The notes beneath the pieces were generated by a model. It worked only from the letters and a program-made list of their open reading frames with translations. It was not told where the DNA came from and searched no databases. A DNA stretch of 64,000 nucleotides from Streptomyces maremycinicus (GTDB taxonomy: Bacteria > Actinomycetota > Actinomycetes > Streptomycetales > Streptomycetaceae). Positions 55,231-57,794 of the stretch are shown one piece after another. The position numbers and the translations under genes are program-made. How positions within the stretch are numbered: position 1 is the first letter of the stretch; each line of letters begins with the position of its first letter. The stretch spans positions 62,001-126,000 of the forward strand of contig NZ_BBYG01000015.1 in assembly GCF_001184025.1 (NCBI RefSeq), given 5' to 3'.

Positions 55231-57609
55231 CTAGTCGCCGACGTGGGCGAGTTCGATGTCGTGGTCGTCCACGTCACCGCCGCCGAGGCTGACGCCGGTC
55301 GCGCGGGGCGGGTAGCCGGTCGCGATGACCGTGTACTGGCCGCCGTCCAGGTCGGAGAAGGCGTACGCGCCGTCGGTGCCGGTCGTGGCGGTCGCCACGA
55401 CGTTTCCGGCGGCGTCCACCAGGGTCACCCGCGCGTCCGCCAGCGGAGCGCCCCCGCCGCGTATGGTGCCCCGCACCAGCGCGCCGGGCCGCAGCTCGAC
55501 ATCGACCCGGGTGACACCGCTGACGCCGATCTCGACCGGCAGTGCCAGCGGCCGGTGCTTGGGCGAGCTGACCGCGAGGGTCACCGGGCCCGGCACCAGT
55601 TCGGCGACCGAGAACGCGCCGGTACCGTCGGTCCGAGCGGTGGCCAGCACATCGCCGCGCACGTCGGTGAGGATGACCACCGCCCCCGCGACCGGCGACC
55701 CGTCGTCCACGGACCGCACCGTGCCGACGAGCCCGCTGGTGCCGCTGAGCAGCACGTCGTACGTCACCGGTGTCGCTGCCACCACCACGGTCGTCGCCTG
55801 TGGCTGGTGCCCGTCGGCGGAGGCGATGAGCACATAGGTGCCCTCCCCCGGCGCCTCGACCGCGTAGGAGCCGTCCGTCCCGGCGACCGCGCGGCCCAAC
55901 TGCCGCCCGCCCAGCGAGATCAGGGTGACCGCCGCGCCGCCCACCGGCACGCCCTCCGCGCCCCGCACGTGCCCGCGCACCGGACGCCCGCCTCCGGCCG
56001 GTCCGGAGTCCGCCAGCCCGGGGACGACCGCGACGAGTTCCGCGACCGCGCGGGCCAGCGGCACGGCGACCGCCGCACCCACGACCCGCTCGTCCGGTAC
56101 GGCGGCGGGCGGTGGAGCGGCGAGCGATACGGCGGGCGCGGGCGCCGGGTCGGCAGGGGCGGGTCCCGCGGCCGACGCGGCCGTATCGGCCGTCCGCCGC
56201 CCCGGGATGAACGCGGCGACGACGAACGCCAGGAGGGCCGCTCCGGAGCCGACGGCCATGACCACCTTGAAGCCGTTCTCCGAGGGCAGCGCGGTGCCGT
56301 CGAAGGTGGTGGTCAGCCGGGCCAGGAGCACACCGGCGACCGCGCCGGCGGTGGAGGTGCCGATGGACCGCATCAGCGTGTTGAGGCTGTTCGCGGCGGC
56401 CGTCTCGGAAGGATCCACGGCGCCCATGATGAGCGCGGGCATGGCCCCGTAGGCGAAGCCGATACCGGCGCCGATGACACAGGAGACCAGGACGAGCTGC
56501 CACACCGCGTCCATCAGCACGATGTTGAGGCCGTACCCGGCGGCGACGACGACGGCGCCGAGCATCAGGGTCACCTTCGGACCGCGCGCCTTGGACAGCA
56601 GCGCGGAGAGCGGCGCGGTGGCCATCATCACCAGGCCCGTGGGGGCCATCACGAGGCCGGCGACCAGCAGTGACCTGCCGAGGCCGTAGCCCGTCGCCTC
56701 GGGCAGCCGGAGCAGCTGCGGGAGCACCAGGGACATGGCGAACATGGAGAAACCGAAGGCCGTCGAGGCGAGGTCGGTCATCAGTACCTGGCGGCGGGCG
56801 GTGGTCCGCAGGTCCACCAGGGGTTCCCCGACGCGCAGTTCGAACACGCCCCACAGCAGCAGGACGACGACCGCGGCGGCGAAGAGCCCGAGGGTGGTGC
56901 CGCTCCCCCAGCCCCAGTCGGCGCCCTTGGAGGTCGCGAGCAGCAGACACACCAGCCCGGCCGCCATGCCGAGGGCGCCGACCAGGTCGAAGCGTCCGCC
57001 GGTGCGCACCGGGGACTCGGGCACGAAGACCGGGACGAGCACGGCGGCGACCGCACCGAGGGCGGCCGACGTCCAGAACAGCGCGTGCCAGTCGAGGTGG
57101 TCCGCGATGAGCGCGGCGGCGGGCAGTCCGAGGGCGCCGCCGATGCCGAGGGAGGCACTCATGAGCGCGGTGGCCGAGCCGAGCCGCTCGGCGGGCAGTT
57201 CGTCCCGCATGATGCTGATGCCGAGCGGGATGACACCGGAGGCGAGGCCCTGGAGAGCCCGGCCGACGATCATCGGGACGAGCCCGTCGCTGAGGGCGGC
57301 CGTGACCGATCCCGCGATCAGCAGGAGCAGGCTGACCAGCAGCATGCGGCGCTTGCCGTGCATGTCGCCGAGCCTGCCCATGACGGGGGTGGCGACGGCG
57401 GCCGCGAGCAGGGTGGCGGTGACCGCCCAGGCCGTGTCGGAGGCCGGGGCGTCCAGGAGTTCCGGCAGCTCCGGGACGATCGGGATCACCAGGGTCTGCA
57501 TCAGCGAGACCACGATCCCGCCGAAGGCCAGCACCACCACGACGAGGCCGGCCCGCGGCGCGGCGGACCCCTCCCCCGGCTCCGCTGAACTGGATTGCGC
57601 AGGGGACAT
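55231..57609 (-). CDS. DHA2-type MFS transporter fused to three carboxypeptidase-regulatory-like Ig domains
   Basis: 792 residues from ATG 57609 (GGAGG at 7 nt). Fourteen membrane helices (1-500) with GRLGDMHGKRRMLLVSLL after helix 2 and GIGGALGLPAAALIAD in helix 5, typical of drug:H+ antiporter-2. A Pro/Ala-rich linker (500-555) leads to three tandem beta-sandwich repeats (about 555-640, 640-715, 715-790) with the repeating pattern VRGxVR-GxPVxGAxVTLxDxxGxxVATAxTxxDGxYxF. With 14 helices both ends should be cytosolic, an odd place for such domains. A MarR-type palindrome overlies its promoter. Confidence 0.87.
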   Translation of the reverse strand: MSPAQSSSAEPGEGSAAPRAGLVVVVLAFGGIVVSLMQTLVIPIVPELPELLDAPASDTAWAVTATLLAAAVATPVMGRLGDMHGKRRMLLVSLLLLIAGSVTAALSDGLVPMIVGRALQGLASGVIPLGISIMRDELPAERLGSATALMSASLGIGGALGLPAAALIADHLDWHALFWTSAALGAVAAVLVPVFVPESPVRTGGRFDLVGALGMAAGLVCLLLATSKGADWGWGSGTTLGLFAAAVVVLLLWGVFELRVGEPLVDLRTTARRQVLMTDLASTAFGFSMFAMSLVLPQLLRLPEATGYGLGRSLLVAGLVMAPTGLVMMATAPLSALLSKARGPKVTLMLGAVVVAAGYGLNIVLMDAVWQLVLVSCVIGAGIGFAYGAMPALIMGAVDPSETAAANSLNTLMRSIGTSTAGAVAGVLLARLTTTFDGTALPSENGFKVVMAVGSGAALLAFVVAAFIPGRRTADTAASAAGPAPADPAPAPAVSLAAPPPAAVPDERVVGAAVAVPLARAVAELVAVVPGLADSGPAGGGRPVRGHVRGAEGVPVGGAAVTLISLGGRQLGRAVAGTDGSYAVEAPGEGTYVLIASADGHQPQATTVVVAATPVTYDVLLSGTSGLVGTVRSVDDGSPVAGAVVILTDVRGDVLATARTDGTGAFSVAELVPGPVTLAVSSPKHRPLALPVEIGVSGVTRVDVELRPGALVRGTIRGGGAPLADARVTLVDAAGNVVATATTGTDGAYAFSDLDGGQYTVIATGYPPRATGVSLGGGDVDDHDIELAHVGD

Positions 57610-57654
57610 GGCCGAGCCTCCGTGGGGCGATGCGGTTCCGCACGACTGCGCAGC

Positions 57655-57684
57655 ATCGTAAGCCCACTTGATTGACTCAAGCAA
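57655..57684 (-). promoter_or_regulatory. Promoter of the MFS-Ig fusion gene
   Basis: On the complement: -35 TTGCTT (57684-57679), 18-nt spacer, -10 TACGAT (57660-57655). The spacer contains the palindrome described separately. Confidence 0.6.
57667..57681. promoter_or_regulatory. MarR-type palindrome CTTGA-N5-TCAAG between -35 and -10
   Basis: CTTGATTGACTCAAG; 5-bp arms around 5 nt, positioned to block polymerase at the MFS promoter. The likely MarR regulator is not in the window. Confidence 0.6.
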
Positions 57685-57704: not shown

Positions 57705-57738
57705 CACGTGAAGAAACCGGGCAGAGGACTCTGCCCGG
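57705..57738 (-). terminator. Rho-independent-like terminator of htpG
   Basis: CCGGGCAGAG and CTCTGCCCGG form a near-perfect stem with the 2-4 nt turn GGAC; on the htpG strand it is followed by TTTCTT. Confidence 0.75.
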
Positions 57739-57794
57739 CCTCCTCGCGGCACGCTCTACCGCGCGCTCCAGCCGCACGCTCTACGGCGCGAGTC

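Follow-up and report, generated by a model that had tools for sequence, protein, structure and literature searches.

A predicted MFS exporter of Streptomyces maremycinicus carries a portable tail of three transthyretin-like domains that may dock helper proteins inside the cell

Streptomyces are makers of many natural antibiotics and must export these compounds. The closest described relatives of the protein presented here include the DHA2-type exporters EmrB, EfpA, QacA and NorC, which have 14 membrane helices and no C-terminal domain cassette. The transthyretin-like fold is known elsewhere in adhesion, stalk and ligand-binding roles, and a domain of this type (CarboxypepD_reg) is part of carboxypeptidases D and N, which are extracellular or lumenal proteins. 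In this work, we describe a gene found in a stretch of 64,000 nucleotides from the genome of S. maremycinicus (hereafter, the window), in which both components are joined. Its membrane body is like that of the DHA2-type exporters in fold, helix count, profile and structural match, and its tail shares the fold and the Pfam family of the carboxypeptidase domain. Unlike the carboxypeptidases, this tail is fused to an exporter, has no peptidase domain and is predicted to be cytosolic. The domain combination is already visible to any Pfam scan, and what is new is best described as an MFS exporter that carries a portable, predicted cytosolic cassette. We found no paper describing the exporter-tail fusion in open-access full text, although absence there is no proof.

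The gene is located on the minus strand (55231..57609) and encodes 792 residues followed by a stop codon, arranged as MFS body, linker and three transthyretin-like domains. According to Pfam, MFS_1 (residues 27-420, 8.6e-53) and the CarboxypepD_reg domains share one open frame, and the minus-strand frame is in fact open throughout 55231-57684. The sequence-only reading had extended the gene to 57681. Starts at 57681 or 57684 were discarded, since both positions fall inside the operator described below. The start is very probably the ATG at 57609, preceded by a ribosome-binding site GGAGG (57617..57621, minus strand) that also precedes the matching ATG in orthologues. Between htpG and the exporter gene there is a GC-rich inverted repeat (57707-57748), probably the htpG terminator.

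The membrane body (residues 17-466; 56212..57561, minus strand) reached 179.9 bits with PF07690 (Major facilitator superfamily), well above the curated cut-off of 33.4. The protein scored 153.6 bits with TIGR00711 (DHA2 family exporter), below the cut-off of 230.2, and for this reason we call it DHA2-like only. An AlphaFold2 model (50 sequences) contains 14 long membrane helices, at residues 17-40, 56-84, 86-105, 110-137, 140-171, 174-195, 209-232, 237-259, 273-293, 314-342, 344-365, 369-397, 400-431 and 444-466. This is the helix number of the DHA2 family, and the model bears out the earlier claim of a 14-helix transporter, with 14 helices predicted and not 13. Foldseek returned EmrB, EfpA, QacA and NorC among the best matches of the body. 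As read from the sequence, antiporter motif C in helix 5 is degenerate (GIGGALGLPAAALIA), and the usual GGPLLGG is present in a paralogue from the same genome (C12). Transport by the window protein is predicted, and for a member of the DHA2 family it would be proton-coupled drug export.

Past the helices, the model shows a low-confidence linker (residues 472-539) and then three beta-sandwiches (541-792). The disordered, Pro/Ala-rich linker (residues 472-540; 55990..56196, minus strand; pLDDT <50) is a flexible segment of about 70 residues with a marginal hydrophobic stretch at 509-533. With a Kyte-Doolittle average above 1.6, this stretch might be taken for a fifteenth membrane helix, which would put the tail outside the cell. 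However, Pro, Arg and Glu occur within it, its pLDDT is low and it is not conserved in most orthologues, being present in L046 and missing from L045, L069, L157 and the paralogues. Its approximate insertion energy of +4.3 kcal/mol points in the same direction, but this calculation is rough and, because a true helix of the same protein (helix 4) scores equally badly at +4.5 kcal/mol, insertion energy alone is indecisive. We judge a fifteenth helix in such a polar and poorly conserved stretch extremely improbable. Taken together with the 14-helix model, the 14-helix homologues of known structure (EmrB, EfpA, QacA and NorC), and the bias of Lys/Arg residues in the membrane-body loops (11 inner, 3 outer), this makes the cytosol the best prediction for the location of the tail, which is also found on carriers with C-termini expected inside. 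The cytosolic placement proposed from the sequence alone is supported by these predictions. The accompanying statement that such domains are rare in the cytosol did not hold, since 12 of the 14 CarboxypepD_reg matches that exceed the cut-off in the genome of S. maremycinicus fall on predicted cytosolic segments and the fusion is widespread in Streptomyces.

The three carboxypeptidase-regulatory-like domains claimed for the C terminus were recovered by Pfam as three CarboxypepD_reg matches (1.4e-35 overall), and each repeat alone exceeded the PF13620 cut-off of 32.3 bits (45.9, 55.7 and 50 bits). All on the minus strand, they comprise residues 541-624 (55738..55989), 625-708 (55486..55737) and 709-792 (55234..55485). 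Because Foldseek with the full model covered mostly the membrane part, the tail was also modelled alone, with a pLDDT of 89.8. Domain 2 of this model matched the transthyretin-like domain of human carboxypeptidase D (5aq0_B) with a Z of 14.4 and an rmsd of 1.3 over 81 residues. The description of the tail as three repeats was right, but the term Ig-like was loose, the fold being transthyretin/prealbumin-like. No peptidase family was found among the Pfam matches, which rules out a carboxypeptidase identity. Many pilins also rank in structural searches with the tail, and we take these matches as a sign of shared fold only. The 252 residues of the tail include a single lysine and no cysteine, which excludes isopeptide or disulphide stabilisation of all three domains; the single lysine also rules out an isopeptide pilin-like tail.

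In the genome of S. maremycinicus, the three-domain tail is found on two more MFS exporters (C11 and C12), and a single domain on an MFS protein (C20) and an MMPL transporter (C8); a stand-alone CarboxypepD-YceI protein adjoins the C12 exporter. The window and C12 exporters are 67% identical in the tail and 29% in the body, and the nearest body in the genome, that of C20 (59% identical), is yet followed by one repeat only. Moreover, the repeats of the window and C12 exporters match by position, with 71% identity for domain 1 to domain 1 and domain 3 to domain 3, above the 34-41% between the repeats of the window protein. The body and tail trees disagree, pointing in the same way as the identity pattern to a tail that moves between carriers. 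Judged from these comparisons, the tail is a portable cassette. Several other MFS branches and the MMPL transporters L150 and L151 have three-domain tails as well, and a single CarboxypepD_reg domain was found on a SLAC1-type channel (L167). Every three-domain tail whose carrier was readable was C-terminal on a multi-helix transporter. The full tail is present in 51 of 61 sampled Streptomyces genomes and, class-wide, in 40 of 297 genomes and 11 of 114 genera. That unrelated Streptomyces exporters share this three-domain tail points to a hitherto undescribed plug-in part that may dock helper proteins to exporters on the cytosolic side.

That one genome has homologous domains on several membrane carriers and on one soluble protein would also be expected if the tails bound each other, producing clusters or oligomers of tail-bearing exporters and CarboxypepD partners. 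The three domains of the window protein differ, however (34-41% identity to one another), and their order is fixed, whereas simple homotypic stacking would need neither; we consider this explanation unlikely.

Related domains were observed in other proteins as well. In an ABC-type permease (L186:1353-2714; G000:C14:69 kb), the series of membrane segments is interrupted by an inserted CarboxypepD_reg-like domain. Two short Arg-rich proteins (L177:950-1627 and L184:1281-2090) end in a single CarboxypepD domain that resembles the MMPL tail; of these two, L177 was scanned with Pfam, and no family besides the CarboxypepD domain was found in it. A DUF1416 protein adjoining a rhodanese-like sulfurtransferase (L188:1273-1596) has a weak CarboxypepD_reg match and is likely a further cytosolic relative of the fold.

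Tail-less relatives of the window exporter were drawn from plasmid records and from the operator search. Three Streptomyces orthologues without a tail (L201-L203) have 72-78% body identity and the same operator, and they nest among the tailed ones in the tree; a tail-less relative in Nonomuraea (L143) is 73% identical. Comparisons between orthologues gave dN/dS values of 0.29-0.37 for the tail, 0.20-0.46 for the body and 0.34-0.81 for the linker, indicating a tail that is under purifying selection although its presence is optional. Many residues are invariant across 43 tails. In G013, the syntenic gene (L200:2029-3357) has approximately residues 21-414 deleted in frame, with the three-domain tail and the operator intact. 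Both this frame, which retains the tail after loss of most of the membrane part, and the variable presence of the tail among close relatives would fit a largely passive stabiliser or passenger, spreading by recombination between exporter genes. Such a role seems to us quite improbable in view of the purifying selection across orthologues, the many invariant residues and the conserved repeat order and operon partner.

Purifying selection on the tail could also reflect a cytosolic substrate-binding or gating domain, which would capture the compound and hand it to the exporter or regulate transport. In some proteins, small ligands are bound by a transthyretin-like fold, and transthyretin itself is among the structural matches of the tail. 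Nevertheless, the cassette is found on carriers of unrelated superfamilies, unlikely to share one substrate, and the tail-less orthologues retain the same operator, so that we regard this reading as rather doubtful.

Another line of evidence comes from the neighbourhood of related tails. C12-type exporters are the commonest carriers, and 74 of their loci had sufficient sequence downstream. In 72 of these, a CarboxypepD-YceI gene lies downstream on the same strand, and a MarR gene lies upstream in 72. CarboxypepD-YceI was also found downstream of one window-type exporter (L157, from G014) and, in three further genera, close to tails (L162; L212, L219-L221). One such gene, L010:6722-7540, belongs to a conserved cluster with the order MarR-exporter-CarboxypepD-YceI, which in many cases has a PPOX-like gene after it. 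Structural matches of the YceI part include 1wub and further YceI entries, some of which were deposited as polyisoprenoid-binding, and no signal peptide was visible when the protein was read by eye. This genomic linkage may be mere co-regulation, but it favours recruitment over substrate binding. The window gene itself has no adjoining CarboxypepD-YceI, and the same is true for most of its orthologues and for the C11-type carriers. For this reason, a CarboxypepD-YceI partner of the window exporter would have to act in trans, or the partner would be another protein.

Our preferred reading, held tentatively and at somewhat less than an even chance, is that the tail is a cytosolic docking module recruiting soluble partners, possibly a lipid-binding YceI carrier. 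Docking fits better than substrate binding because the tail occurs on carriers that are unlikely to have a substrate in common, because close relatives can do without it and it is nonetheless under purifying selection, and because related carriers are linked to a soluble protein with a homologous domain. In the mechanism that we propose, a DHA2-like 14-helix MFS exporter with a cytosolic C-terminus would be tethered, by its flexible linker of about 70 residues, to three transthyretin-like domains, each different from the others. This portable cassette would be an accessory, transport as such being possible without it, and would keep soluble partner proteins at the inner mouth of the exporter. 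Cytosolic CarboxypepD-YceI proteins would be the best candidate partner class. Some members of the YceI family bind polyisoprenoids, and a hydrophobic substrate could be brought to the exporter by the YceI barrel of such a partner. Both the exporter and a zinc-dependent dehydrogenase would be under the control of a MarR repressor whose gene lies in another part of the genome.

A MarR-type palindrome within the promoter spacer had been reported in the sequence-only reading. The palindrome (TTGCTTGAGTCAATCAA; 57668..57684, minus strand) is real, conserved and of MarR type, but it is not confined to the spacer, as it spans the -35 hexamer TTGCTT (57679-57684) and the first 11 nt of the 17-nt spacer. 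This -35 and the likely -10 hexamer TACGAT (57656..57661; TACATT-like in orthologues), both on the minus strand, were read from the sequence; a scan with the strict consensus gave no promoter. The palindrome had no second match in the 64-kb window (mean of 0.01 expected from shuffles). Conservation of the operator TTGCTTnAGTCAATCAA extends to the upstream regions of orthologues, and the exact pattern TTGCTTnAnTCAAnCAA is present in six copies in 61 Streptomyces genomes, all of them upstream of a window-type exporter gene, tailed or tail-less. In the genome of S. maremycinicus, the sole other near matches are two sites upstream of a zinc-dependent alcohol dehydrogenase-like gene (L194; G000:C14, about 330.5 kb), which is likely in the same regulon as the window gene. 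In G011, a MarR gene is divergent from the homologous dehydrogenase with three operator-type sites between them, and two more sites precede the exporter. The orthologue of this dehydrogenase-side MarR in S. maremycinicus (L208:3175-3705; G000:C14:312 kb) is encoded outside the window and is 64% identical to it. Its own promoter contains a related operator, and it likely regulates the window gene. We discarded control of the window gene by the MarR from the C12 operon, whose operators are of another type (TTGCCTnnnGCAACCAA). The conservation of the operator, together with a MarR gene that has a site of this kind, makes the putative MarR operator at the window gene promoter well supported.

A broader and more speculative possibility, to which we give a low probability, is an Actinomycetes-wide cytosolic adaptor, in which the three-domain plug, mounted on different transporter superfamilies, recruits CarboxypepD-tagged carriers, CarboxypepD-YceI being an example, and channels hydrophobic compounds from synthesis to export. 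If true, such a plug on unrelated exporter superfamilies would point to a common way to couple production with export. The system offers a candidate partner (CarboxypepD-YceI), a natural control (tail-less orthologues with the same operator) and a candidate regulator.

Three other described systems bear comparison with this locus. The YceI polyisoprenoid-binding proteins (1wub, 1y0g) belong to the same family as the operon partner of related exporters, but in that partner the YceI part is fused to a CarboxypepD domain and has no visible signal peptide. The Cna_B and SpaA domains of pilins and adhesins are, like the window tail, related prealbumin-like sandwich repeats, but they are found at the cell surface and often contain Lys-Asn isopeptide bonds, whereas the window tail has a single lysine. 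Finally, the N-terminal extension of SusC (9hfj, Z 12.3) places a CarboxypepD-like domain on a TonB-dependent transporter, much as the tail is placed on the exporter; that extension is single, N-terminal, periplasmic and part of an outer-membrane importer, whereas the window tail consists of three domains, is C-terminal, is predicted to be cytosolic and belongs to a predicted exporter.
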